Positions 6,343-19,986 of a stretch of 64,000 nucleotides of DNA are shown here, piece after piece (positions within the stretch are counted from its first letter, which is position 1; the number at the start of each line of letters is the position of its first letter). Below the pieces are notes generated by a model, which was not told the DNA's origin, made no database searches, and saw only the letters and a program-made list of their open reading frames with translations. The stretch is from Nitratireductor sp. XY-223 (GTDB taxonomy: Bacteria > Pseudomonadota > Alphaproteobacteria > Rhizobiales > Rhizobiaceae). The DNA lies in contig NZ_SPNT01000004.1 in assembly GCF_004959855.1 (NCBI RefSeq), positions 186,001 through 250,000 on the forward strand, given 5' to 3'. A program made the position numbers and the translations under genes.

Positions 6343-6615
6343 GATGCTCCTGCACTGTGACAAACGGCAGGGCGCAGTCTGGTGCAGTCCGGTATGTTTG
6401 TCGAACAATTGTTAGGGCCCGTTCAGGAATTAACTGAAACGTCACGCCGGCCGCCGCTTCAATTGACAGCGCATTTGGCGGCCCGCTACAGTTTTTGCGG
6501 GCAGGATTGTCCACCCGGGGCGAGCGCGTTGAGTTTCATGTCGAACGGGCGGCAAAAGTCAGACGGATCGCGGTCGATAACCCGGCCCATTTTGCGAAGA
6601 CCGAGGAGTGCTTTA

Positions 6616-7173
6616 ATGCGATTTCGTTTCCTGACTGTATTGTCTGTCGTCTGCCTGGGCGCGTTCGGCACCGGCGCGCTGGCGCAGGACGCCTCCTCGG
6701 ACGAGCAGCCCGATTTCATCATCAAGGTGCCGGTGAAATTTGACAATCTGCACAAGGACATCACCGGTTCCTACGTGCATTGCGAGGCCTTTTCGCCCGA
6801 TTACACCTATGGCGGCGACCAGGCGACGCCGGCGCGCGCTTCTTCGGGCGATCTCGGCACCGACGATTTCGACGGCATTGTCGAGATGGCGCTTTCCGTG
6901 CGCGACTACTGGGACCCGGACGATACGACGGAAATCGTCTGCGAGATGTCCTTTAACGTGCAGACGGACCGCGGTGTCGAGCGTATCGATTCCGAGCTTT
7001 ACGGGCCGACGACGGCCTTCGGCCGAGACCGCAGCGCCTGCCGCCACGAGGTCGAATGGCTGCGCGCCGCCTGCACGGAAAAGGACAGCGAGGCGCTCGG
7101 CCTCATCCGCCACAAGTTGAACGAGCCGGCGGCGGGCGAGGCCACTGATACGACCGCCGCAACATCGGAATGA
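6616..7173 (+). CDS. Exported protein of unknown function, partner of the repeat protein
   Basis: 185 residues from the ATG at 6616, preceded by GAGGAG. A clear Sec signal peptide (FRFLTVLSVVCLGAFGTGALAQ) occupies about residues 1-24 and ends in ALA-Q. The mature protein has four cysteines (YVHCEAF, VCEMSF, SACRHE, RAACTE), which could form two disulfide bonds in the periplasm. I recognise no family. Its last codon overlaps the start of the large repeat protein (ATGA), so the two are co-translated and probably act together outside the cytoplasm. Confidence 0.8.
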   Translation: MRFRFLTVLSVVCLGAFGTGALAQDASSDEQPDFIIKVPVKFDNLHKDITGSYVHCEAFSPDYTYGGDQATPARASSGDLGTDDFDGIVEMALSVRDYWDPDDTTEIVCEMSFNVQTDRGVERIDSELYGPTTAFGRDRSACRHEVEWLRAACTEKDSEALGLIRHKLNEPAAGEATDTTAATSE

Positions 7174-9434
7174 AACGCCGGCACGCGCTTGCCGTTCTTG
7201 TCCTTGCGCTGACATTCGCCGCACCCGCGGCGGCGCAGGAGGAAGACACCTGCGCGGGCCTTGGCGACCTTTCCGGTCTCTACACGACCTCCGACGGCAG
7301 CGTCGAGGCCGACTGGACCTTCCTGAGCTCCGGCGAGACGCCGCAGGCGGGCGATCCGTTCCAGGCCGAGCACACCTATCTTCCGGGCGTCGAGCGGCTG
7401 GGGCCCGGCCCGCACTACCTGCTCTTCGGACGTATGGGCGAGGGCTGCCGCTCGATCAGCGGCACCTGGCGGGCGCTCTTCGCGCCCTCCGGCACCGGCC
7501 GGATGATGAGCGGCGCCTTCACCGCCTCGGTGGCGCCCGGCGCGATCACCATCGTCAGCGCCGAGGACGACGCGGACCAGCCGGTCGGCTGGCTCGGCCT
7601 AAACTACCAGATCGACGGAAACGGGGAACCCGTGCCGGTCACCCTGCAGCAGCGGCTCGCCTTCAACGGCACGACGGTAACGACGCGGGATGTCACCGTG
7701 GCAGCTCAACTCTCCTTCGGCGGCGAACGGCCCGCGACCGGCACCGTTGAACTCGGCGAAAGACTCGCCTTCACCGGGCACCAGCCGCAAAGCCGTACGA
7801 TCGAGTGGGGCGAAACGCTCGCCTTCCATGGCCTGGGCGACGGCACGCGCACGGTGGAACTCACCGCGACGCTGGAACACCACGGCAAGCCCACCGGAAC
7901 GCGCACGCTGGACCTTGCGGACGCGCTCGCCTTTTCCGGCAAGGAAAGCGCGCAACGCGTTGTGGCGCTTGCAGAAAGCCTCTCCTTCAGCGGCAAGCCG
8001 TACGCCGTGCGCCGCATCGAACTTGCCGAGACGCTGGCCTTTCCCGGGCAGCCCCTGCGCACCCGCACGATCGCACTCGAAGAGGCCCTCGCCTTTTCCG
8101 GCAAGCCGCATGCGGTGCGGCGCCTGACGCTCACGGACGCCCTGGCGTTCCAGGGCGAAGCGCGCGCGCCGCGCGGGCTGGACCTCGGCGCCCTCAGCTT
8201 CAGCGGCACGCCGCCCGTCACGCGGCGCATCGATTTTAACGAGGCTCTCGAACTGCACGGGCTGATGCCCGCCGGACGGCGCGTGACGCTGTCGCGCCGG
8301 CTTACCTTCCACGCCGACCGGGACGGCACGCGGCCGATTTCCCTCGGCGAACGCCTCGCCTTTTCCGGCCCGCGCCCGGTGAGCCGCGCGGTCGCGATGC
8401 CGTCGCCGCTTTCCTTCCACGGCGACACGGTGCGCATGCGGGAGGTTTCCCTGCCCGGCGCGCTGCATTTCTCCGGCAAGCAGGCGCGGGCGCGCATGGT
8501 GCTGACGGACGGCACGCTCGAATTCCACGGCATGACCGGGCCGATCGAAGTCTCGATCGTCATGGAGAACCTCGACCCGGTGGGGGCCGGTCCCTGCGGG
8601 CTGATGCTCGACACAGGTCTGCGCACGCTCGATATCGAGGAGAGCCTGCCGGAGACACCCGACGGCATCACGCCGGACTATATCGAAAAGCTGCGCGCCG
8701 CCTTCGGGCCCTATCACAGCTATATCGCCGACACGCTCGACAGGCAGGCGGCCTGCATGGAGGAGCGGCTGGAGGGCTTTCGCGAGATCGCCGCCGACGC
8801 GGCGCATGAGAGCTGGCTGAAGGCGCCGGCCCTCAATGCCGAGACCTTCTACACCAACCAGATCCGCGCGACGCGCAATGCGGCGCTTTATTTGCGCCAG
8901 ATCGCCTGGGAGCTGGACGGTATCGCGCGGATCCTCAACGACGAGGAAAGCTTCCACCTGTTCGACAGCGGTATAGACGCGCCGGAAGCCGCCAATTTCG
9001 GCCTGGTGACGAAGGGGGCGGATGCGCCTGTGCCCAGCGGCGGAGACATCATGAAGGCGAAAGACTTCGAGCTGATGCTCAAGCATGCGCCGGAAACGGC
9101 CGAGGCGCTGATCGCCCAGCGCAACCAATATCTGCACCGCAAGCTCACGCAGAGGCTCGCTTATCTGGAGGGGCTGCTGCCGCGCACGATCGGGGGCCTT
9201 GCTGACTGGACGCAGGTCGAAGGCTATGTGACCCGCGAGTTCATGCCGCGCATTGCCGGCGAGATCGCCGCCGGCACCGGCGGGGACGCGGCTTCCTATG
9301 CGCGGGAATTCTCCGAGCTTGCCCAGGTGACCGGCAACCGCATCAGCGGCGGCGAATTTTCCGACTTCATGGGCGGCAAGGTGCGCGACGGCGATTTCGA
9401 CCCGTGGCCGGACGCGAAGATCCTTCTTCCGTGA
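7170..9434 (+). CDS. Large exported protein with 17 tandem 18-residue repeats, unknown function
   Basis: 754 residues starting at an ATG that overlaps the previous stop. Residues 1-23 are a Sec signal peptide (VLVLALTFAAPAAAQ). An N-terminal region of about 130 residues, with Cys pairs, is followed at residues 157-461 by 17 consecutive copies of an 18-residue unit, one copy being a residue short. The consensus is roughly [VIL]xLxExLAFSGxxxxxR[TR]. Alternating hydrophobic positions and an invariant-like FxG turn suggest stacked short beta strands, such as a solenoid or hairpin array. The last ~290 residues look mainly helical (IEKLRAAFGPYHSYIADTL..). I recognise no family. A surface or periplasmic structural or binding role is inference. 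Confidence 0.85.
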   Translation: MKRRHALAVLVLALTFAAPAAAQEEDTCAGLGDLSGLYTTSDGSVEADWTFLSSGETPQAGDPFQAEHTYLPGVERLGPGPHYLLFGRMGEGCRSISGTWRALFAPSGTGRMMSGAFTASVAPGAITIVSAEDDADQPVGWLGLNYQIDGNGEPVPVTLQQRLAFNGTTVTTRDVTVAAQLSFGGERPATGTVELGERLAFTGHQPQSRTIEWGETLAFHGLGDGTRTVELTATLEHHGKPTGTRTLDLADALAFSGKESAQRVVALAESLSFSGKPYAVRRIELAETLAFPGQPLRTRTIALEEALAFSGKPHAVRRLTLTDALAFQGEARAPRGLDLGALSFSGTPPVTRRIDFNEALELHGLMPAGRRVTLSRRLTFHADRDGTRPISLGERLAFSGPRPVSRAVAMPSPLSFHGDTVRMREVSLPGALHFSGKQARARMVLTDGTLEFHGMTGPIEVSIVMENLDPVGAGPCGLMLDTGLRTLDIEESLPETPDGITPDYIEKLRAAFGPYHSYIADTLDRQAACMEERLEGFREIAADAAHESWLKAPALNAETFYTNQIRATRNAALYLRQIAWELDGIARILNDEESFHLFDSGIDAPEAANFGLVTKGADAPVPSGGDIMKAKDFELMLKHAPETAEALIAQRNQYLHRKLTQRLAYLEGLLPRTIGGLADWTQVEGYVTREFMPRIAGEIAAGTGGDAASYAREFSELAQVTGNRISGGEFSDFMGGKVRDGDFDPWPDAKILLP
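7638..8552 (+). repeat. Tandem 54-bp coding repeat (17 copies) inside the exported repeat protein
   Basis: Reading in frame from 7638, the translated sequence falls into 17 units of 18 residues without spacers; the tenth unit has 17. Bases are less conserved than residues, so the units are old duplications kept by selection on the protein rather than recent slippage. Units near the middle (RRIELAETLAF.., RTIALEEALAFSG..) are closest to one another. Confidence 0.9.
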
Positions 9435-9562
9435 CCAGCCGTCAGCGCACGGCGCGGGCAAGCGCCCTTTAGCGGATGGGGTTACGGTGGCGGCAACCTC
9501 GAACTCGTTTGACTGCCGGTGCCGCAGGATCAGTCGGAAACGATCGCGGTCATCGAACCGGG

Positions 9563-10951
9563 TTAGGATCCGGCGGCAGTCACGATTGTTTTGATATTGG
9601 TGAATTCGCGCGCGCCGTGTACGCCCAGCTCCCGACCGTAACCGGATAGTTTTATTCCGCCAAAAGGCAGACGCGGGTCCGATGCGACCATTGCGTTTAT
9701 AAATGTCTGGCCGGATTCGATTTCATCGGCACAGCGTTGTTGCTCCACCGGATCGTTCGTCCAAACACTGCTGCCCAGCCCGTAGGGTGTGTCATTGGCG
9801 AGCTTCATCGCGTGTTCGAAACTGTCTGCTCTGAACAGCGCGGCTGCCGGACCGAACATCTCCACGTCGTTTGAAGCAGCGTCTCGTGGAATGTCTGAAA
9901 GAACCGTTGCCGAATAGAAATACCCGTCACCACCGCTCGGACGGCCACCCGTCAGTAGCCGCGCGCCGGCGCTTTTGGATTGTTCAATCTGGAGGCGTAG
10001 TGTTTCAAGACCTTGGGCGGTGGCCAGCGGGCCAAGTTCGGTCGAACCTTGCATTGGATCGCCCACGGTGAGTGCTTCCATTGCGGCCACAAACCCGGCT
10101 TCAAACTTGTCATAAACATCCCGATGCACGATGAAGCGCTTCGCGCATACACAGGACTGGCCATTGTTGGTGATCCGGGCCGCAACGCCGGTTGCGATAG
10201 CCTTTTCGAGATCGGCGCTTGGCAGCACGATGAACGGATCGTTGCCGCCGAGTTCAAGAACGCATTTTTTCAATGCGCCTCCGGCAGTCCGGGCAACCGC
10301 CGCCCCTGCCGCTTCGCTGCCGGTCAGCGTGACGGCGGCAATTCGTTTGTCGCGTATAATGTTTGCGATCCTGGCGGATCCGATTGCAAGATTCTGAAAC
10401 ACGCCAGGCTGAAGGCCGGCCTGCTGCGTGACTGCCTCAATCGCCCGCGCGCATTGCGGCACATTGGAGGCATGTTTCAACAGCATGGTATTTCCCGCCA
10501 TTATCGCCGGCGCAAGGCACCTGAACACCTGCCACAGCGGGAAGTTCCAGGGCATGATAGCCAAAATAGTGCCAAGCGGCAGGTACCGGATGCGGGCAGC
10601 CGGAGGCGACGCGACAATGTCATCCGACAGCAGCGCTTCTCCGGCGTCGGCAAAGTAGCGGCACGCCAGCGCGCATTTTTGAACCTCCGCGACGGCCTGA
10701 TTGATGGGTTTCCCCATCTCCAGGGTCATCAGGTTCGCAAGAGCCTTTTGATCCCTGTCCAGAATGCCGGCTATCATGTGTAACACCGCCCGCCGTTCTT
10801 CGAAGGTGGACCGCTTCCAGCCCATGGAGGCAATTTCAGCGGAACAAAGCGCCTTCTCGATGGCATCGGGCGTAAGTTCCTCAAATGCGGCAAGCTCCGT
10901 GCCGTCGGTTGGATTAATGCTCTTTAAGACCACTGTACTTGTCCAATACAA
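9563..10951 (-). CDS. NAD(P)-dependent aldehyde dehydrogenase (succinate-semialdehyde dehydrogenase-like)
   Basis: 462 residues with the complete ALDH fold: the general-base glutamate in [10 protein letters not shown], the nucleophilic cysteine in [12 protein letters not shown], and the C-terminal motif [21 protein letters not shown]. The sequence is closest in style to the short succinate-semialdehyde dehydrogenases that begin with a SINPTDG strand. It is the last gene of the leftward liv-type transporter group and starts 36 bases after livF. It probably oxidises an aldehyde formed from the imported compound to the acid. The start is uncertain: the TTG at 10951 has no clear ribosome site, but any later start would cut into the first strand. 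Confidence 0.9.
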
Positions 10952-10987
10952 ATGAGAGTAATACTGAAATGCGGTCGCCGCGGCCGT

Positions 10988-11686
10988 CTAAACTGCGAGA
11001 TATTTCTGTTTCAATTCGGAGTTCTGTTCCAATTCGTCGATCGTGCCATGGAATCTGATCCGGCCGTCGTCGATCAGATAGGCCCGATCGGAAAGCCTGC
11101 AGGCAAAGCTCGAATTCTGCTCCACCAGAAGAATGGATATCCCCTCGTCGCGGACGGTCCGGATTACATCGCCGACGGTCGTGACAATCACCGGGGCCAG
11201 CCCTTCGGATGGCTCGTCCAAAAGGATCAGCGAAGGATTGCCCATAAGCGCCCGGCCGATGGTCAGCATCTGCTGTTCACCGCCGCTCAGTTGATGACCG
11301 AGATTGTGACGCCGCTCGTTGAGGCGGGGAAACAGTTCATAAACGCGCTTGATTGACCAGGGACCGTTGCGGCGCTCCCGGATGGCGCCGATCTCCAGGT
11401 TCTCGTGAACCGTGAGGCGCGAGAATATCCGACGATCCTCCGGCACGAATGCGATGCCCTTGCGGCAAATGTTGTTTGGCTTTTCTCCCTGGAGCGGCTT
11501 GCCCTCGAATGAGACGGTGCCGCTGCGCGGCGGCGTCAGGCCCATTATGGAGCGCAGACTGGTCGTCTTGCCAGCGCCGTTGCGGCCAAGGAGGCTGACA
11601 ACCTCGCCTTGGCCGACTGTCAGCGCAACATCAAACAGGATATGGCTTTGACCATAATAGGTATTAAGTTTTTCGACGTTCAGCAT
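10988..11686 (-). CDS. Branched-chain-amino-acid-type ABC transporter ATPase, LivF-like
   Basis: 232 residues with Walker A GRNGAGKTT, the ABC signature LSGGEQQMLTIGRAL and Walker B LILLDEPSEGLAP; the phrase EPSEGLAP is typical of LivF rather than LivG. The ATG at 11686 shares its A with the livG stop (TGATG), indicating coupled translation; a GTG one codon upstream is also possible. Together with LivG it would energise uptake through the LivH/LivM pair. In this locus the cargo is probably an amide or related compound rather than a branched-chain amino acid, because the divergent gene encodes an aliphatic amidase. Confidence 0.93.
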   Translation of the reverse strand: MLNVEKLNTYYGQSHILFDVALTVGQGEVVSLLGRNGAGKTTSLRSIMGLTPPRSGTVSFEGKPLQGEKPNNICRKGIAFVPEDRRIFSRLTVHENLEIGAIRERRNGPWSIKRVYELFPRLNERRHNLGHQLSGGEQQMLTIGRALMGNPSLILLDEPSEGLAPVIVTTVGDVIRTVRDEGISILLVEQNSSFACRLSDRAYLIDDGRIRFHGTIDELEQNSELKQKYLAV

Positions 11687-12429
11687 CACGCTTCCTCGCC
11701 CAGATAGGCAACCTGCACGGTTCTATTTCCCTTGATTTCCTCAGGGGTTCCCTCGGCGATGATGCTGCCCTGGTGCAGGACGCTGATATTATCGGCAATT
11801 GAAAAGACAATGCCCATGTCGTGTTCGGTGAACAGCACGGTCGCGCTCTGCGCCACGCGGCGGATCAACGCCACGGTGCTTGCGGTTTCCTCGACCGACA
11901 TTCCGGCCGTCGGTTCGTCGAGAAGGATCAGACGCGGATTGAGCGCCAGGGTCAGCCCCAACTCCAGGTTTCGGCGCTCACCATGGCTCAGCGCGCTCAC
12001 CGGCAGACCTGCTTTGGCGCCAAGTTCGACACGGTCGAGAATTTCACGCGCCTCGGCGGCCTCCGTTTCAAAGGAGAGCAGTGACGCAAACAAATTCGTG
12101 GTTTTGCCTCTGCCGGCAAGCACGCCGACCAAGATGTTTTCGAACACCGAAAGGCGCGGGAATATATTGGTGATCTGGAACGACCGCCCGATACCCCGTC
12201 TCACGAGGGCATGGGCGGGCACACCCGTTACGTCCGCGCCTTCAAATATGACCTTGCCGCCAGTCGGCGCCAGTTTGCCGGTGATAAGATTGAACAGTGT
12301 CGTCTTGCCGGCGCCGTTGGGCCCAATAATGGCGCGTACCTCGCCGGCTTCAAGCGACAGACTCACATCGCTGACGGCGTTGAGTGCGCCGAACCGTCGG
12401 CTGAGCTTGCGTGTTTCCAGGATGGTCAT
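11686..12429 (-). CDS. Branched-chain-amino-acid-type ABC transporter ATPase, LivG-like
   Basis: 247 residues with Walker A IGPNGAGKTTLFNLITG, signature ALSHGERRNLELGLTL and Walker B LILLDEPTAGMSVEE. The LSHGE form of the signature and the AGMS sequence mark the LivG subfamily, as in urea and short-chain amide transporters. The start codon overlaps the end of the LivM gene by four bases, and the stop overlaps the livF start, so the four transporter genes form one tight unit. Confidence 0.93.
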   Translation of the reverse strand: MTILETRKLSRRFGALNAVSDVSLSLEAGEVRAIIGPNGAGKTTLFNLITGKLAPTGGKVIFEGADVTGVPAHALVRRGIGRSFQITNIFPRLSVFENILVGVLAGRGKTTNLFASLLSFETEAAEAREILDRVELGAKAGLPVSALSHGERRNLELGLTLALNPRLILLDEPTAGMSVEETASTVALIRRVAQSATVLFTEHDMGIVFSIADNISVLHQGSIIAEGTPEEIKGNRTVQVAYLGEEA

Positions 12430-13445
12430 TTACTCGCCCCCTTGAAGATTTCGCTGAGGCGGGCGGTAATGAACCCGACAATGCCGCCGGGTGCGAACAG
12501 GACGCACAGGATCAGGATGCTACCGACAATGATTTTCCAATACTCCGTGTAGTTCAGCACCGTGTCGCGCAGGAAAATCAGAACGGTGGCCCCGACCGCC
12601 GGTCCCAAGAAGGAATGGATGCCGCCGAGGATCGTCATCAACACCGTTTCGCCCGACTTCGTCCAGTAAAGGAGTTCCGGCGAAATGAAGCCCTGGAACG
12701 GTGCAAACAAGCCACCGGCGAGGCCGCCAAAGGCGGCGGAAATGATGAAGGCGGCGAGCTTGTAGCGGTAGACCGGCAGGCCGAGAAATTCCACGCGCTC
12801 TGGATTTTCGCGGATCGCCTTCAAAATCGCGCCGAATGGCGAATTGAGGATGCGCCACATCAGGTAGGCGGCGAGTGCCACGATCACAAGCGTGAAATAG
12901 TAGTAGCCGACGAAACCGTCTATGCTGATCTCGGTAAGACCGAACAGGCTGATGTCGGGGCGCGGAATGCCGATCAGTCCATCGTCGCCGCCTGTCACGC
13001 TGTCCCAATAGAACGCGATGGTGTAGAACGCTTGGGAAAAGGCCAGCGTAATCATGGCGAAGTAAAGACCCGAAAGGCGAATGCAGAATACGCCGATCGC
13101 CAGTGCGACGATGCCTGCCGATAGCACGCTGGCAGTCAGACCAGCCCAGATCGAGGGGTAAACATGCTGCATTGCAAGTGTGCTCGCATAGGCGCCAATT
13201 CCCAGAAAGGCGGCATGGCCGAGCGACACGAGGCCGGTATAGCCGATCAGTATGTTGAGGCTGAGCGCTAGCAGCGAAATGATGATGATTTCCGTAAATA
13301 GCTGCAGATTGTAGAGATTGCCGTCAAGCAGCGGATATGCGATTGCCGCCGCGAAGCCCGCCAGGGTCAGTGTCTTGCCGTTGACCAGGCTGGTGGCGAT
13401 CGGGCGCGACCCGTACGACACGGCAGCGTCAGACAGTTTTTTCAC
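12426..13445 (-). CDS. Branched-chain-amino-acid-type ABC transporter permease, LivM-like
   Basis: 339 residues, strongly hydrophobic, with about eight to ten membrane segments and the LivM family core (ILIGYTGLVSLGHAAFLGIGAYAST, ENPERVEFLGLPVYRYKLAAFIISAAFGGLAGGL). The EAA-like loop that contacts the ATPases is the AIRENPERVEFLG segment. It starts at a GTG that overlaps the end of livH by 17 bases. It forms the heterodimeric membrane channel with LivH. Confidence 0.92.
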   Translation of the reverse strand: MKKLSDAAVSYGSRPIATSLVNGKTLTLAGFAAAIAYPLLDGNLYNLQLFTEIIIISLLALSLNILIGYTGLVSLGHAAFLGIGAYASTLAMQHVYPSIWAGLTASVLSAGIVALAIGVFCIRLSGLYFAMITLAFSQAFYTIAFYWDSVTGGDDGLIGIPRPDISLFGLTEISIDGFVGYYYFTLVIVALAAYLMWRILNSPFGAILKAIRENPERVEFLGLPVYRYKLAAFIISAAFGGLAGGLFAPFQGFISPELLYWTKSGETVLMTILGGIHSFLGPAVGATVLIFLRDTVLNYTEYWKIIVGSILILCVLFAPGGIVGFITARLSEIFKGASK

Positions 13446-14307
13446 CGAATAGCCCCCTTGGTTTGACGATCAGAACCGCGAGAAGGACGAGATAGATAAA
13501 GATCATCGCGAAGTTGGGCAGTGCCAGAATGCCGAATGCCTTTATCTGGCCGATCAGCAGCGCGCCGATTATGGCGCCGCCCAGGCTGCCCATGCCGCCG
13601 ATGACGACGACGATGAAAGACTCGATGAAAATCTCCAGCCCCATACCCGGCACGATGCTGCGAATTGGCGCGACGAGAAGGCCGGCAAGCCCTGCAAGCG
13701 CTGCGCTCAAGGCAAAGACGCCGGTGAAGACCAGATTGACATTGACGCCGAGCGCGCCGAGCATTTCGGTGTCGGTCGAGGCGGCACGGATCAATTTGCC
13801 GAAGGGAGTGCGGTAGAGAAGATACCACAGCAGCGCGCAGACGACCGGCCCGACGACGATGATGAAAATGAAATGCAGCGGAAAGCCGTAATTGCCGATG
13901 GACACGGCCCCGCTCAACAGTTCCGGCACCGGTACGGTCTTGAAATCCCGACCCCATATCAACAGTGCGAGATCATCAAAGACCATCGCCAGGCCGAAGG
14001 TCAAAAGCAGCGTGTAAAGACGTTCGCGGTGGTAGAGGGGCCGCAACAGGCATATCTCCACCACCGCGGCAACCAGCGCGAGCGCAAGGGGAATTGTGAT
14101 CAGGCCGACCCAAAACCACATCCCGCCCAGCCCCCACTGGCCGAGGGAGAACATCATGAAGGCTCCAAGCATGTAGAAGCCGCCATGGGCGAAGTTGAGG
14201 ATGCCGAGAACACCGAGCAACAGAGTCAGCCCCGATGCAATCAGTATCAGGATCATGGCGATTGCCAGGCCGTTCAGGAACTGGGCTGCGACAAAGGCAA
14301 TATCCAT
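13429..14307 (-). CDS. Branched-chain-amino-acid-type ABC transporter permease, LivH-like
   Basis: 292 residues from the ATG at 14307 (GGAG upstream); an upstream in-frame GTG at 14322 would add five residues. The LivH landmarks are ASGLTLLLGVLGILNFAHGGFYMLGAF at the start, the cytoplasmic loop AASTDTEMLGALGVNVN that docks on the ATPases, and VIGGMGSLGGAIIGALLIG near the end. Encoded directly downstream of the binding protein and directly upstream of livM. Confidence 0.93.
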   Translation of the reverse strand: MDIAFVAAQFLNGLAIAMILILIASGLTLLLGVLGILNFAHGGFYMLGAFMMFSLGQWGLGGMWFWVGLITIPLALALVAAVVEICLLRPLYHRERLYTLLLTFGLAMVFDDLALLIWGRDFKTVPVPELLSGAVSIGNYGFPLHFIFIIVVGPVVCALLWYLLYRTPFGKLIRAASTDTEMLGALGVNVNLVFTGVFALSAALAGLAGLLVAPIRSIVPGMGLEIFIESFIVVVIGGMGSLGGAIIGALLIGQIKAFGILALPNFAMIFIYLVLLAVLIVKPRGLFGEKTV

Positions 14308-14331
14308 TGCAGTGTGCTCCACGCTAACTGA

Positions 14332-15540
14332 TCAGTTGCGGCAACCCTGGCCGGAATCCTCATCCGGGTGCGCCGCCTGGATCGGCGAAATCACCTGAAT
14401 GTCGCTCAATACCGGGAACGGATAGGCATCGTCGTGACTCACCTTTCCCCAAAAAGCGGACTGCAATCCCTGGTGGTCGCTGGGGCGCATGATAATCCAG
14501 CCTTCCGGGGCGTTATAGGCAAGTCCGCCGAGCGCATTGATGGCGAGGTCCTTATCCGGCTCGCCGGCGCGCCGGATCGCCTCAGCCATCACATGCACAG
14601 CCGCATAGGCTTCGCCGGCCGCCATGTCGGGATAGACGTCGTAGGTAGCCTTAAAAGCCTGGACGAAATCACGGTTCATTTGTGTGTCCGGGTAGTTATG
14701 CAGATAGCGCGAACTGGCCCAATGGCCGAACGGGGCATCGTCACCAAGCGCTTTCAGGACCACATGGTTGCCGCCGAAATCGGTGAAAATCGTAACCTGC
14801 TCATTGAGCCCGAAGGCCTTGGCCTGTTTCAGAAACTTGACGACATCGGCACCGAACAGGCCGATGTAGAGCGCGTCCGGGTCGGCGCGGGCGATGTTGC
14901 TGATGTAAGGCGAATAGTCTTCCTCACCAAGTTTCGGCCATGCCTGCTCGGCAACCTCTGCATCCGGCATCAGCCTTTTCAGATTGTCGGTGAACTGATT
15001 GACCACCGAGCGCCCGTAGGAAAAATCGGACGATATGGTCGCCCATTTCTTCAAACCTTCCCGTTGCGCGACAACGGCGCCGGAACGCGACGTTTGTTGC
15101 GCGCTTGATCCGACGCGCCATGTGTAGCGGCTGCAGTTGACCGTGTTGATTTCTTCTGTTGCCGCCCAAGGGATATGCGGCGTCTTGAGCCGTTGCGCCT
15201 CATTCAGAACGGCGATCGCCGCACCACCGTGCAACGGGCCGAATAGGGCGAATACATCGTCCTGCAGCACCAGCCGGCGCGCCACTCGCACAGCCGTGTC
15301 CGGATTGGTTTCATCATCGCGGATGACCGCTTCCAGCTTGTGCCCCAGAATGCCGCCCTGCTCATTGATCTGATCGACGGCGAGGTTTACGCCCTGCGAG
15401 GTGCGTTCACCGACGATTGCATAGAGCCCGGTCAGCGGGGCAAGGACGCCGAATTTGATCGTATCTTCAGCCAGCGCGGGCTGAGCTGTTACAATGGTCG
15501 CCACCAGACCGGCGGCGAGTGTGCTGTTGAATGATTTCAT
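14332..15540 (-). CDS. ABC transporter periplasmic substrate-binding protein (LivJ/LivK, Peripla_BP_6 type; amide/urea-type)
   Basis: 402 residues from the ATG at 15540, with GGAGGA six bases upstream. A signal peptide (STLAAGLVATIVTAQPALA) is followed by a type I periplasmic binding fold (IKFGVLAPLTGLYAIVGERTSQG, AVDQINEQGGILG). The length and the WAATEEINTVNC region are closer to binding proteins of amide and urea systems than to the true branched-chain amino acid LivJ. The protein ends with a Cys-containing tail. Together with LivHMGF and the divergent amidase it would capture an amide, or an amide precursor, in the periplasm. Confidence 0.9.
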   Translation of the reverse strand: MKSFNSTLAAGLVATIVTAQPALAEDTIKFGVLAPLTGLYAIVGERTSQGVNLAVDQINEQGGILGHKLEAVIRDDETNPDTAVRVARRLVLQDDVFALFGPLHGGAAIAVLNEAQRLKTPHIPWAATEEINTVNCSRYTWRVGSSAQQTSRSGAVVAQREGLKKWATISSDFSYGRSVVNQFTDNLKRLMPDAEVAEQAWPKLGEEDYSPYISNIARADPDALYIGLFGADVVKFLKQAKAFGLNEQVTIFTDFGGNHVVLKALGDDAPFGHWASSRYLHNYPDTQMNRDFVQAFKATYDVYPDMAAGEAYAAVHVMAEAIRRAGEPDKDLAINALGGLAYNAPEGWIIMRPSDHQGLQSAFWGKVSHDDAYPFPVLSDIQVISPIQAAHPDEDSGQGCRN

Positions 15541-15624
15541 GCCATTTCCTCCCAGGCATTGTTGAACCACATGTGCCGCGCGCCTCTTTCTTGATTGAGA
15601 GGTCGGCGTCTTGTTTTTGCGCTC

Positions 15625-15930
15625 CTAAACCACGTCGACGGCGCTCAGGACGCACACGCTGATCGGCTCGTCCAGGTGCTTGAGTATCGTTGCCCGATAT
15701 TGCTTGTAGTGATCGGATTCCCGATGCGCTTCCAATGCCGGGCCGTCAACGTATTTCTCAAATAGGTGGAACGCGACGTGACCCACATTTGTCTGTTCGT
15801 AGAGATCATAAACCAGGTTGCCCGGCTCGTCGCGTGTTGGCCGGACCATGCCCCTCAGTATCTGTTCGACGGTTTTTTCCGTACCTTTTTTGGGCCTGAA
15901 CGAGGCAAAAACCATGACGGGTTCTGACAC
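15625..15930 (-). CDS. Antibiotic biosynthesis monooxygenase (ABM) domain protein, YgiN-like
   Basis: 101 residues forming one ferredoxin-like ABM domain (MVFASFRPKKGTEKTVEQIL, DEPGNLVYDLYEQTNV, FHLFEKYVDGPALEAHRESDHYKQY). The family includes quinol monooxygenase YgiN and small haem- or cofactor-free oxygenases, as well as non-catalytic stress proteins. The GTG at 15930 is chosen because GGAGGA lies seven bases before it; a TTG at 15945 would place the start inside that ribosome site. It is the first gene of the leftward amide-transport group. A role in oxidising the imported compound is possible but unproven. Confidence 0.85.
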   Translation of the reverse strand: MSEPVMVFASFRPKKGTEKTVEQILRGMVRPTRDEPGNLVYDLYEQTNVGHVAFHLFEKYVDGPALEAHRESDHYKQYRATILKHLDEPISVCVLSAVDVV

Positions 15931-15958
15931 TTTGACTTCCTCCAATCAGTTTGGGTCT

Positions 15959-15980
15959 AGACAAGCATTGTTACATGTCT
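15959..15980. promoter_or_regulatory. Inverted repeat over the -10 region, possible GntR operator (left)
   Basis: AGACA (15959-15963) and TGTCT (15976-15980) form perfect 5-base arms 12 bases apart, spanning the predicted -10 box of the leftward promoter. The GntR/UTRA gene two positions away in the rightward arm is the obvious candidate protein. Binding is inferred from position only. Confidence 0.45.
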
Positions 15981-15997
15981 TAACTTGTATCTGTCAA
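15968..15997 (-). promoter_or_regulatory. Predicted sigma-70-type promoter for the leftward ABM-liv-ALDH operon
   Basis: On the minus strand a perfect -35 box TTGACA (15997-15992) is followed after 18 bases by TAACAA (15973-15968). This places transcription start near 15960, about 30 bases before the ABM gene start. Two inverted repeats overlap the promoter. Confidence 0.6.
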
Positions 15998-16009
15998 TAT
16001 GTGACAAGT
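15983..16009. promoter_or_regulatory. Inverted repeat ACTTGT-N15-ACAAGT, possible GntR operator (right)
   Basis: Perfect 6-base arms at 15983-15988 and 16004-16009, placed over the -35 box of the leftward promoter and just upstream of the amidase ribosome site. A protein bound here could control both directions at once. Confidence 0.45.
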
Positions 16010-16027
16010 TTGCAAGAGGGAATCACG

Positions 16028-17038
16028 ATGCCAGCCATTAATCCAACCCCGCATGCCATGAGTGTTGTCATGGTGCAGTTTTCACCGGATTCGGCCAATG
16101 ACGCAGAAGGGGTGAAGCGCAACATTCAAACCATCTCCGACTACGTCGACCGAGCCTGTTCGGGATTCCCGGGTGTCGATCTGATCGTTTTTCCAGAATA
16201 CTCGACACATGGTTTCGGTTTCGACCCTTACGGGACGCATCTGCAGCTGGCCACCACCATCCCGGGCCCTGAAACCGAGGCCTTCGGCAAGATCGCCCGC
16301 GAAAAGGGCGTCTGGCTTTGCGTTTCCATCGTTGAAAGGGCGGAGGACCCAAACAAGAAGGCGTACAACGCCATGGTCATCATCGATTCCGAAGGCCGAG
16401 TAGCGTTGAAATATCGCAAGATGATGCCCTGGTGCCCGAAAGAACCCTGGACACCTGGTGAAACGATGGAGGTTTGCGAAGGACCGAAAGGATCGGTGAT
16501 CGCGATCACCCTGTGTTCGGATTTCGATTATCCGGAAGTCTCGAGGGAAGCAGCCTGGAAAGGCGCGAACGTCATCTTGCGGCCGTCAAAATATATGTAT
16601 CCATGGGACCATATCTGGAACATCACCAACCAGGCGAGAGCATTTGAGAACCAGGCTTATGTCGTCGCGGTCAACCACACGGGACAGGACAATTCCTATT
16701 CCTATTTCGGTCGCTCCATGGCCGTCGATTTCGACGGCAACATCATATGTGAAATGGGCGACACTGAAGGCATGACAAAAGTCGATCTTTATCCAATGCT
16801 TGCCGAAGCGGCGCGCGATGACCGTGCGTCAAACAACTATCTCTACCAGCTCAAACATCGCGGATATACCGGTGTTCCGCCCCATGGCCTGACGGACAAT
16901 CCGTTCACTGTCTACAGTGACTGGGATGCTATCCCCGAACGCTGGAACCGTGGCCCCAGCGAGGAGGAGGAAAAAGTTTCGGCCGTCGGCCGCGGCAGTC
17001 TCGCAAGAGCGGCCGCAAAACTGGATGCAGCAGAATAG
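16028..17038 (+). CDS. Aliphatic amidase / formamidase (nitrilase superfamily)
   Basis: 336 residues from the ATG at 16028 (AGAGGGA upstream). The nitrilase-superfamily triad is intact: Glu57 in VFPEYST, Lys131 in KYRKMMPWCP and Cys163 in TLCSDFDYPE. Spacing is nearly identical to that of the AmiE amidase of Pseudomonas (59/134/166). The KYRKxxPWCPxExWxPG segment, the YMYP motif and the C-terminal LKHRGYTG region place it in the AmiE/AmiF group, which hydrolyses short aliphatic amides or formamide to the acid plus ammonia. It diverges from the liv-type transporter, a layout known for amide-uptake systems. The C-terminus is shorter than AmiE, so the substrate may differ. Confidence 0.88.
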   Translation: MPAINPTPHAMSVVMVQFSPDSANDAEGVKRNIQTISDYVDRACSGFPGVDLIVFPEYSTHGFGFDPYGTHLQLATTIPGPETEAFGKIAREKGVWLCVSIVERAEDPNKKAYNAMVIIDSEGRVALKYRKMMPWCPKEPWTPGETMEVCEGPKGSVIAITLCSDFDYPEVSREAAWKGANVILRPSKYMYPWDHIWNITNQARAFENQAYVVAVNHTGQDNSYSYFGRSMAVDFDGNIICEMGDTEGMTKVDLYPMLAEAARDDRASNNYLYQLKHRGYTGVPPHGLTDNPFTVYSDWDAIPERWNRGPSEEEEKVSAVGRGSLARAAAKLDAAE

Positions 17039-17138
17039 GCAAATCGTCGTCGGCGGAGAGGGATCCGAACCTTCTTCGCCGTTGATGGCCGTTCAGAACG
17101 TTTGTATGTGTTGCGCAGACCAAGGAGAAGAATTCTAC

Positions 17139-17951
17139 ATGTCCAACGGGTCGGCCCGGTTTAGCCGCAATTCAAGCGTGCCCCTGCATGCACAACTGAC
17201 GGAAATACTCATGTCCCGCATAGAGTCGGGCGAGCTGGGCGAGGGAAAGTTTCCGAGCGAGAATGCCCTGGTGCGGGAGTACGATGTCAGCCGCGTCACG
17301 GTTCGCCAGGCGCTGTCGAATCTCGAAGAGCGCGGTTTGGTATACCGGCGTCAAGGGCTGGGAACTTTCGTCAAGGGACCGCAGATAAGCCAACAGCTCA
17401 ACCGGGGCGCCAGGACCATCGTCGAGGCGATGCGCGCACACGGGCTGGAACCGGAAGTGCAGGTCTTGGGGCTGGAGCAGGTCGATGCTCCGGCCTTCGT
17501 CGCCGATGCGCTCGGGACCGGTCCCCAGCCGGTCACGCTGTTGCGCCGCGTCTATCTCCACGAGGGGATGCCGATTGCCCTGGTCGAACTTTACCTTCCC
17601 CTGGCGATGACCGGTGTCGGTGAGGTACTGCCGCGGCGCGACCACCTGACCGAGACGACCTATTCGGTTTTCGAAAACGAAATGAACATCCGGATCAAGG
17701 AGGCCCGGCACGTCATCCACGCCGCGGTTCTCGACCAGCCGACGGCGGATATCCTGGAAATGGAAGACGGCTCGACCTGTCTGGTTCTCGACCGCACCAC
17801 CTACTCCGACAGCGGCAACGTCCTTGAGCTGATCCGATATTACTACAGCACCGACCGCTTCCAGTTCGAAATCACCCTGCCGCGCGACGCCGAGGATCTG
17901 GCGATCCGGGTATCGCAGCGTTGGCGTTCCACACCGGGCACCGAGGCCTGA
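17139..17951 (+). CDS. GntR family transcriptional regulator with UTRA domain (HutC subfamily)
   Basis: 270 residues from the ATG at 17139 (AAGGAGAA upstream). An N-terminal winged helix (LHAQLTEILMSRIESGEL..FPSENALVREYDVSRVTVRQALSNLEERGLVYRRQGLGTFV) is followed from about residue 100 by a UTRA ligand domain (PVTLLRRVYLHEGMPIALVELYLP, LVLDRTTYSDSGNVLE). HutC-type regulators usually repress catabolic genes until a pathway compound binds the UTRA domain. It lies between the amidase and the SDR and probably controls both arms of the locus through the dyads at 15959-16009. Confidence 0.92.
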   Translation: MSNGSARFSRNSSVPLHAQLTEILMSRIESGELGEGKFPSENALVREYDVSRVTVRQALSNLEERGLVYRRQGLGTFVKGPQISQQLNRGARTIVEAMRAHGLEPEVQVLGLEQVDAPAFVADALGTGPQPVTLLRRVYLHEGMPIALVELYLPLAMTGVGEVLPRRDHLTETTYSVFENEMNIRIKEARHVIHAAVLDQPTADILEMEDGSTCLVLDRTTYSDSGNVLELIRYYYSTDRFQFEITLPRDAEDLAIRVSQRWRSTPGTEA

Positions 17952-17975
17952 CTTCGCGACAAAAGGAATTTGCCC

Positions 17976-18779
17976 ATGGACCTCTTGATCAATGACAAGG
18001 TTGCCATTGTCACCGGCGCCAGCGCCGGCATCGGCCTGGCTGTCGCCCGTGAACTGGCCGCGGCGGGCGTCAAGCTTGTGCTGACAGCGCGCGGTGAGGA
18101 ACGCCTTTCTCAGGCAGTTGGTTCGATCCAGCAGCAAGGCGGCCGTGTGATAGGCGTGCCGCTCGATGTGACACAGGCGGATGCCGGCGATCAATTGGTG
18201 CGTGCGGCTTCGGAGAAATTCGGCGGAGCCGATATTGTGGTCAACAATGCCGGCCGGGCACATCCGGGTGGCCTCTTGGACAATGGCGACGAGGAATGGC
18301 GCAAGATGGAGGATATCAAGCTCCATGCCATGATCCGCCTGAACCGTGCCGCCATTCCGGTCATGACGGAACGCGGCTGGGGGCGCATCGTCAACATGTC
18401 GTCAATCGGCGGCATATTTCCAAACCCGAAGCTTCTGATCTCGCATGTTCTCAGCGCCGCCATCAACAATCTGACACGCGGCCTGGCGCGGGAAGTTGCC
18501 AACCGCAATATCCTGGTCAATGCGGTCGCAATCGGAGCCGTGCGGACCGAGAACTGGGAGGACAACATGATACCGAAAGCGCGCCAGACACGGCCCGACC
18601 TTGCCGGTCTTTCCGATGAAGAACTGATCGCCCGGCTCGGCGCTGAGGACACACCTGTCGGGCGCTTTGGCAGGCCGGAGGAAATCGCGGCTATCGCCGC
18701 CTTTCTTGCCTCCGACCGCAATGGATTCGTCACCGGCTGCACGGTCGAGGCGTCGGGCGGCGCCGAACGCTTCTTCTGA
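17976..18779 (+). CDS. SDR family oxidoreductase, atypical active site
   Basis: 267 residues from the ATG at 17976, 24 bases after the GntR gene. The Rossmann motif TGASAGIG, the structural NNAG and the catalytic-serine strand IVNMSSIGG are present, as is the C-terminal FLASDRNGFVTGCTVEASGG. Where the active-site YxxxK is expected the sequence reads ISHVLSAA, so both the tyrosine and the lysine are missing. A known SDR branch has a similar SNxxR/SHxxS replacement, so this may be a regular member of that branch rather than a damaged gene. A NAD(P)-dependent role in the amide pathway is inferred from position. Confidence 0.85.
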   Translation: MDLLINDKVAIVTGASAGIGLAVARELAAAGVKLVLTARGEERLSQAVGSIQQQGGRVIGVPLDVTQADAGDQLVRAASEKFGGADIVVNNAGRAHPGGLLDNGDEEWRKMEDIKLHAMIRLNRAAIPVMTERGWGRIVNMSSIGGIFPNPKLLISHVLSAAINNLTRGLAREVANRNILVNAVAIGAVRTENWEDNMIPKARQTRPDLAGLSDEELIARLGAEDTPVGRFGRPEEIAAIAAFLASDRNGFVTGCTVEASGGAERFF

Positions 18780-18825: not shown

Positions 18826-19986
18826 TCAGCGCGCGGCGCGGGCGAGCGCCTGTTCGAGATCGTGGATCAGGTCGTCCGCATCCTCGATGCCGATGGAAAG
18901 CCGCAGCAGCCTTTCATGCACCGGAAAGCCCTCGCCCGAGACCGTCTTGCGGTGTTCGATCAGACTTTCGACACCGCCGAGCGACGTTGCCGGATAAAAC
19001 ACCTCGCAGAACCGGGCGACGTCGATCGCCGTCTGCTCGCTGCCCTTGACGATGAGCGACAGCATGGCGCCGATCTGGCCGCCCGTCTGGCGGCTGGCGA
19101 CCTCGTGCCCGGGATGGGAGGGAAGGCCCGGATAAAGCACCGCGTCCAGATGTTCGTGGCCGTCGAAATGCCGGGCAATGGCAGCTGCGTTTTTTGATGC
19201 CCTTTCAACCCGCAGGAAGAGCGTGCGCATGCCGCGGATCAAAAGCCAGGCATCGAAGGACTGCAGCACCGTGCCCTGCAGCTTGCGGATCTCGGCGATC
19301 TGTTCGAAACCCGCATCGGCCTCGCGCACCGACAAGGCGCCGGCGGTGACGTCCGAATGGCCGTTCAGGAACTTGGTGGCCGAATGGAAGGAGATGTCGG
19401 CGCCGAAATCCAGCGCGCGAGTCATCGAGGGCGGGGTCGCCGTGCAGTCGGTGATCAGCCGCGCGCCGGCATCGCGGGCGATCTTTGCCGCGGCGGCGAT
19501 GTCGGTGACCTCCCAGTTGGGATTGTTCGGCGTTTCCACCCAGACGAGCGCCGTCTCGCCCGGCCGCACGGCGGCGGCAAGCTCCTCGAGATTGCCGGCC
19601 GTATAGGGACTGAGCGTCAACCGGCCCTTTGCCTCGTAGCCGAGGAGCTGCTGGCGCACGCCGTGATACATGACCTCGGGCGCCACCACATGGGCGCCCG
19701 GAGCCAGGCTTTCGATGACCGCCGTGCAGGCCGACATGCCGGAGGAAAACAAGAGCGTGTCGCCGGCGCCCTCCAGCTCGGCGAGGATGCTTTCAGCCTG
19801 CTGCGTCGTCTGGCTGCCGTCGCGCCGGTACCAGTAGGGCTTGCGGGTCGAATAATTGTGGTCGCGCGCATAGGTCGCCGTCGGCTGGATGGCCGGGATC
19901 ACGGCGCCGGTCTCCTCCTCCACATAGTGCAGCGCCTGCGCCGTGCGGGTCTGAACGGAGGGTTTGCGGTTGCGGCCGTCGGTCAT
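18826..19986 (-). CDS. PLP-dependent trans-sulfuration enzyme family protein (cystathionine gamma-synthase/lyase-like)
   Basis: 386 residues of the Cys/Met-metabolism PLP family. Visible are the cofactor-phosphate segment LFSSGMSACTAVIESL, the pyridine-ring aspartate in ARLITDCTATPP, the Schiff-base lysine in SFHSATKFLNGHSDVTAG, and the C-terminal SLGGVESLIEHRK and RLSIGIEDADDLIHDLEQAL. The family covers cystathionine gamma-synthase, cystathionine beta- and gamma-lyases, methionine gamma-lyase and O-acetylhomoserine sulfhydrylase. The precise reaction cannot be read off, and no methionine genes adjoin it. It is convergent with the SDR gene, 46 bases away. Confidence 0.9.
   Translation of the reverse strand: MTDGRNRKPSVQTRTAQALHYVEEETGAVIPAIQPTATYARDHNYSTRKPYWYRRDGSQTTQQAESILAELEGAGDTLLFSSGMSACTAVIESLAPGAHVVAPEVMYHGVRQQLLGYEAKGRLTLSPYTAGNLEELAAAVRPGETALVWVETPNNPNWEVTDIAAAAKIARDAGARLITDCTATPPSMTRALDFGADISFHSATKFLNGHSDVTAGALSVREADAGFEQIAEIRKLQGTVLQSFDAWLLIRGMRTLFLRVERASKNAAAIARHFDGHEHLDAVLYPGLPSHPGHEVASRQTGGQIGAMLSLIVKGSEQTAIDVARFCEVFYPATSLGGVESLIEHRKTVSGEGFPVHERLLRLSIGIEDADDLIHDLEQALARAAR

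Follow-up and report, generated by a model that had tools for sequence, protein, structure and literature searches.

A putative two-gene envelope system with an array of seventeen 18-residue LxFxG repeats in Nitratireductor sp. XY-223

Results

The repeat gene and its array

Here we describe two overlapping genes in a stretch of 64,000 nucleotides (positions 186,001 to 250,000 of contig NZ_SPNT01000004.1; hereafter the window) from the genome of Nitratireductor sp. XY-223, an assembly of 59 contigs and 6.19 Mb. The larger gene encodes a protein in which 17 short tandem repeats lie between two acidic domains, and the smaller, immediately upstream, encodes an acidic protein that we call its partner; signal peptides, as well as the gene names given to neighbours in the window, rest on inspection of the sequence. 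An earlier note on this DNA had claimed that the larger gene codes for an exported protein with an uninterrupted array of 17 18-residue units, one of them a residue short, and of an unrecognised kind. The look of the signal peptide agrees with export, and the array was confirmed by the spacing of the units, by shuffled controls and by motif counts in the DNA. For most comparisons we used a set of three orthologues (the window protein, that of Hoeflea poritis at locus L004, and that at locus L003), which together provide 51 units.

Anchoring on LxFxG-like sites yielded 17 units, whose anchors lie 18 residues apart in 15 cases and 17 apart in one. Counted from a conserved Arg, the array spans residues 155-459 (157-461 in the register of the earlier note) and unit 11 is the short one; the unit consensus is R-x-[VI]-x-L-x-x-x-L-x-F-x-G-x5. 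At 18-residue spacing, the motif L-x-[FLHY]-x-[GA] recurs without a break up to 10 times in the window protein, 7 times in H. poritis and 16 times in genome G006, the runs being interrupted where units are degenerate, and 2000 shuffles of the window protein gave no run longer than 3. At the DNA level, LxFxG codon sets stood three in a row at intervals of 54 bases 7 times in the window and never in 100 shuffles. Tandem Repeats Finder reported no repeat in the DNA, so the units have diverged; mean DNA identity among units 1-9 is 51%.

Conservation within the unit is concentrated in a few positions. Across the 51 units, Leu occupies position 9 in all, Gly position 13 in 48, Phe position 11 in 46 and Arg position 1 in 41, while the share of hydrophobic residues reaches 98% at position 3, 88% at 5, 100% at 9 and 98% at 11, and falls to 4% at 15. 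The three orthologues agree on L9 in every one of the 17 units, on F11 in 16, on G13 in 15 and on R1 in 10, and the remaining positions are variable (agreement in 1 to 5 units of 17 each). Repeat counts in relatives, which the earlier note had proposed, gave 17 units in all three carriers. The three short units among the 51 represent two events, one in unit 11 of two orthologues and the other in unit 4 of one. Resemblance is higher between orthologous units (64%, 42% and 37%) than between non-orthologous ones (31-33%), and therefore the array has most likely been inherited whole and is not being remade. Its units nonetheless change faster than the flanking domains: between the window and H. 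poritis, the ratio of nonsynonymous to synonymous substitution rates (dN/dS) is ~0.47 in the array, 0.20 in the N-terminal domain and 0.16 in residues 460-754. A contrast of charge is kept in all three orthologues, with a basic array (isoelectric point, pI, 10.2-10.9) and acidic N- and C-terminal domains (4.1-4.8).

Features of the two-gene unit in the window (positions are those of the window)
Feature	Position	Strand	Basis or remark
Sigma-70-like promoter match (TTGACA, 18, TACAGT), upstream of the two-gene unit	6463..6492	+	Consensus scan, 10/12 bases; no evidence of function
Partner gene, small exported acidic protein of 185 aa	6616..7173	+	ATG at 6616 from conserved start in alignment; export by inspection
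Repeat protein gene	7170..9434	+	ATG start, 754 aa; orthologues L004 (77% identical) and L003 (53%)
ATGA overlap of partner stop codon and repeat gene start codon	7170..7173	+	Sequence
Signal peptide, residues 1-23	7170..7238	+	Inspection (AAPAAA-Q; cleavage read as AAA-QEE)
N-terminal domain, residues 24-154	7239..7631	+	Acidic, pI 4.1; two conserved Cys
Array of 17 x 18 residues, residues 155-459	7632..8546	+	Basic, pI 10.4; unit 11 has 17 residues
Strand-like trailing stretch EVSIVMENLDP after unit 17, residues 460-470	8547..8579	+	Inspection; kept in orthologues
C-terminal domain, residues 471-754	8580..9431	+	Acidic; two Cys

The partner gene and its surroundings

The 4-base overlap between the two genes is identical at L003 and L004. 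The partner is acidic in all three orthologues (pI 4.4-4.7), each of which retains its four Cys, and its identity to the window sequence (93% and 84%) is higher than that of the repeat protein (77% and 53%). A carbamoylase-like gene on the opposite strand adjoins both genes at all three loci. A block of ~9 kb (9563-18779) separates the repeat gene of the window from a gene for an enzyme resembling pyridoxal phosphate (PLP) enzymes (18826-19986), and was read as encoding an aldehyde dehydrogenase, a branched-chain-type ABC transporter, a nitrilase/amidase-like enzyme, a GntR-type regulator and a short-chain dehydrogenase; in H. poritis the repeat and PLP-enzyme-like open reading frames (ORFs) are only 7 bases apart.

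Distribution

The genome samples overlapped between searches, which comprised 1993 genome look-ups altogether. The verdict of chance on weak genome matches comes from reading of the frames, a reading that covered the weak loci other than L008 and L092. Within the genus, three of eight genomes (one of them that of the window) have the repeat protein, and the same three were the only carriers among 101 sampled relatives. Two of 397 genomes of the order gave a match (the window's own and one by chance), as did four of 398 in the phylum, namely the window's own, G621 and two weak ones. H. poritis was the sole match in a single scan of genome contigs, the whole protein had no match at E 0.01 among plasmid and phage records, and a profile of the 18-residue unit matched two of 299 genomes, again the window's own and one by chance. 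Among the matches rejected as chance, L006 carries a different short tandem repeat, next to a CRISPR-like array, L016 contains flagellar genes, L018 is adenylate-cyclase-like and L009 was dismissed after its frames had been read; other plasmid matches (E 0.2-10) were likewise taken as chance.

The match in G621, from the same phylum, is confined to the C-terminal domain (E 2.7e-25) and lies on a protein of 890 residues (L013:5171-7843). The two domains are ~32% identical and both Cys are present in this distant homologue, but the G621 protein is without such repeats and has instead, by inspection, a long coiled-coil-like stretch. The C-terminal domain is a module found also outside the repeat protein. 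A profile of it matched one of 74 genomes of the family of G621 (G621 itself) and one of 240 genomes of the class (the window's own). The G621 ORF overlaps an upstream lipoprotein-like ORF, and neither has a Pfam match above cut-off.

The partner profile reached five of 81 relatives: the three carriers of the same genus, G003 weakly (E 0.003 over 42 residues, L092) and G062 (E 2.4e-4), which belongs to the same order but to another family. In a sample of the class, two of 385 genomes matched, the window's own and one by chance.

A second array in G062

The G062 locus (L093) was thus found through the partner and not through the repeats. On one strand it carries a partner-like gene (7443-7865; profile comparison with the partner, probability 92, E 6e-7), two mutually related genes (7986-9316; 58%) and a gene (9427-10398) that encodes a signal-like start followed by 12 tandem 17-residue LxFTG units, such as IVATAPALTFTG-LKPGA. 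The first of these units, IIELSDSLTFTG, closely resembles the Hoeflea consensus and scored 19.6 bits with the Hoeflea unit matrix, while the best of 2000 shuffles scored 17.2 (mean 1.2). A comparison of the whole-protein profile with the G062 array gave a probability of 63 and an E-value of 7e-5, and in a three-unit profile comparison none of 200 fully permuted controls reached the real score.

The two arrays resemble each other in an export-like start, as far as it can be seen by eye, in tandem units with V/I3, L9, F11 and G13, in that first unit and in the partner-like gene close by. They differ in period, which is 17 in G062, where the core of 13 residues is kept and the linker is 4 residues long, against 5 in the window; in uniformity, the 12 units of G062 being more alike (mean DNA identity 79%); and in their surroundings, since no match to the N- or C-terminal domain was seen in G062 and its array protein has, by inspection, a basic tail. 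Matches to the G062 array on Burkholderia glumae and Hymenobacter plasmids were rejected as other repeats, one plasmid of each having been read.

Library searches

The earlier note's claim that the repeat is of an unrecognised kind held in the libraries searched, where nothing passed a curated cut-off or had an E-value under 0.05 for the repeat protein. Pfam, NCBIfam, PHROGs and PDB sequences, compared with the whole protein, its parts and profiles, returned no confident match; in Pfam, the whole protein matched no family within E 1 and the array alone none within E 10, and the N-terminal domain matched no family. Neither did the partner find a match in Pfam, NCBIfam or PHROGs, and the C-terminal domain had none that was confident in Pfam, NCBIfam or the PDB sequences. 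At the level of titles and abstracts, the literature searched does not describe the repeat.

Several weak rows were taken as chance: four in Pfam for single members of the C-terminal domain alignment (the best being CXCL16, E 0.05), four in Pfam for the G621 protein, one in PDB for EmrB (E 0.62) and three in PDB for the partner (E 0.6-1.4). The same verdict was reached for the G062 array on the Pfam families WcbI (E 1.7e-4) and DUF2237 (E 2.8e-4), which are under curated cut-offs and have no stretch that passes alone, and on two NCBIfam rows (E 0.39 and 0.84), and also for single weak rows of two partner-side genes of G062.

Look-alike repeats in viral contigs

Four LxFxG codon sets at 54-base spacing were found in 58 stretches of viral contigs. 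Twenty loci were dropped by eye as short-period, overlapping-frame or differently composed repeats, although two of these, L039 and L045, do have an 18-residue period; the 38 ORFs that were counted carry an 18-residue repeat of approximately A-L-T-A-T-L-S-F-V-G-A-L-A-K-R-T-S-R (L034, L036-L038, L040-L044, L047, L049-L054, L056, L059-L064, L067, L069, L070, L072, L073, L075, L077, L079-L081 and L083-L087). The repeats are sometimes broken by other stretches, some loci look near-duplicate, and L087 contains 41 LxFxG motifs. Pfam gave nothing above cut-off for five viral ORFs, and of four compared with PHROGs only L084 matched clearly, to a virion structural family and outside the repeats. At 17-residue spacing there were 4 viral stretches, of which L097 and L098 are another kind of repeat and L099 and L100 lack an ORF with four motifs.

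The window units and the viral repeats gave a profile comparison probability of 80 (E 2e-6), but that score was also reached by 14 of 100 permuted controls in which the selected columns were kept in place, so that similarity beyond LxFxG and the period did not rise above the controls. What the viral repeats (for example L087) share with the window is that period and motif; they differ in having K/R at positions 3 and 17, a hydrophobic residue at 15 and A/G at 7. Likeness is shown here, kinship is not.

Discussion

Our tentative interpretation is that the two overlapping genes form an envelope operon, in which an exported rod of 17 beta-hairpins, held between acidic domains, would serve as a spacer or scaffold and work together with the partner. 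We infer the hairpin, its stacking, joint translation, contact with the partner, cellular place and function from sequence. The unit is read as a hairpin because its hydrophobic positions 3 and 5 mirror 9 and 11 about position 7, because the short units are taken to have lost their residue at positions 6-8, and because it is the linker that is shorter in G062. Residues 1-5 of each 18-residue unit would pair with residues 9-13 (V3 with F11, L5 with L9, R1 with G13) around a turn at 6-8, and residues 14-18 would lead to the next hairpin. The hairpins may stack through the face formed by V3, L5, L9 and F11, and in such a stack the conserved Arg would therefore make a basic line of charge along the rod. 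Since a basic array lies between acidic ends and is accompanied by an acidic partner, docking by charge is suggested. The rod could act, together with the small acidic exported partner, as a spacer of fixed length or a binding scaffold in the periplasm or at the cell surface; if two strands per unit were to stack at 4.8 angstroms, an assumption on which the arithmetic depends, 17 units would measure ~16 nm. The interpretation in the earlier note is supported in part: of its two structural guesses, a beta-solenoid or a stacked hairpin array, the second fits the hydrophobic pattern and the sites that tolerate a change of length. That note had not mentioned the exported partner whose gene overlaps that of the repeat protein, a copy number that stays at 17 or the second LxFTG array.

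The G062 array probably belongs to one class with that of the window, the gene neighbourhood, a single case, being the stronger half of the argument. If such a class were defined by LxF[ST]G repeats with a VPVKxxNL-type partner, tandem LxFxG units on proteins that look exported occur in both the window and L093, and a partner-like gene lies upstream on the same strand at the three same-genus loci and at L093, where two genes stand between. It is possible that those two genes are an expansion of the partner domain. Since repeat and partner lie close together in two families of the order, they may make up a single, wider two-part envelope system. A bolder version would see here a new alphaproteobacterial class of envelope hairpin rods, made with a small exported partner and built of LxF[ST]G units that are 17-18 residues long and carry an Arg line; a fixed number of hairpins (17, or ~16 nm under the stacking assumption above) would span the periplasm as a bridge or molecular ruler, and the acidic partner or the acidic end domains would dock on the basic rod. 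This version seems to us quite unlikely.

A number of observations weigh against these proposals. The missing residue of the short units was placed between L5 and L9 by manual alignment, and residues that favour turns make up 18-27% at positions 6-8 compared with 20-22% at positions 2 and 4. In G062, units 2-12 scored 6.8-13.0 bits, under the best shuffle of 17.2, and once the LxFxG columns were fixed, nine of 200 permutations of the array equalled the real score; the two intervening genes match the partner weakly (E 0.003 and 0.05). A link between the two arrays beyond the motif is therefore drawn mainly from the first unit and from that one case of gene neighbourhood.

Each unit might instead contain a continuous strand of ~11 residues (3-13) and a 7-residue turn, and the array would then be a long antiparallel meander or a beta-barrel. 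The alternation at positions 3, 5, 7, 9, 11 and 13 is unbroken, and the viral LSFxG repeats, with hydrophobic residues at 5, 9, 11 and 15, look like such a strand. Yet position 7, which would face the hydrophobic side, is mostly polar or Gly/Ala (Glu is commonest, in 16 of 51 units), Pro occurs at position 6 in 4 units and at position 8 in 6, and residues missing at 6-8, where they have been placed, would flip the strand, so that we consider a continuous strand unlikely. It is improbable that the protein is a trimeric fibre, for example of the triple beta-spiral kind with the C-terminal domain as the trimer handle, although short repeats with alternating hydrophobic residues and a turn-like conserved Gly, in constant number and between folded ends, recall the shafts of such fibres; no PDB sequence matched.

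That the array is a bacterial branch of the viral repeats, working like the repeat of a virion fibre which the cell has adopted, is quite improbable in our estimation. The shared period and motif, the 38 viral-contig ORFs and the score of the profile comparison when taken alone would speak for it, but motif and period had been pre-selected by the search pattern, the permuted controls with three columns fixed did as well in 14 cases out of 100, charged and hydrophobic positions differ, and pattern-seeded protein searches of the viral contigs returned no relative. Least probable of all is a disordered or decaying spacer with little structure: the elevated dN/dS of the array (~0.47, against 0.16-0.20 in the flanks) and the scarcely conserved outer positions of the unit would be expected of one, but the ratio does not reach 1, the three orthologues agree on L9, F11 and G13 in 17, 16 and 15 of the 17 units, and copy number is constant.

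Should the hairpin rod prove true, it would add to the known repeat proteins a small class of fixed length that a simple signature identifies, and would offer a tractable case of how distances may be set in the bacterial envelope, as well as a possible scaffold for repeat-protein design.

Among repeats that are already known, RTX and the other repeats modelled in Pfam gave no match there. The left-handed beta-helix is built on a hexapeptide, [LIV]-[GAED]-x2-[STAV]-x, in series; the window array has no Pfam match to it, and its hydrophobic residues are at positions 3, 5, 9 and 11 and not at 15 (4%). In choline-binding repeats aromatic residues line the choline sites. The window array contains one Trp and one Tyr, its signature is LxFxG with Arg, and neither the whole protein nor the array alone matched the Pfam models of choline-binding and cell-wall-binding repeats. 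The choline-binding repeats of pneumococcal LytA nevertheless provide the nearest analogy that we can offer: according to PMC4471590, they form a beta-beta-solenoid in which each hairpin is followed by a short linker, and it is this working principle, tandem hairpins joined by short linkers in a solenoid, that the window array may share.

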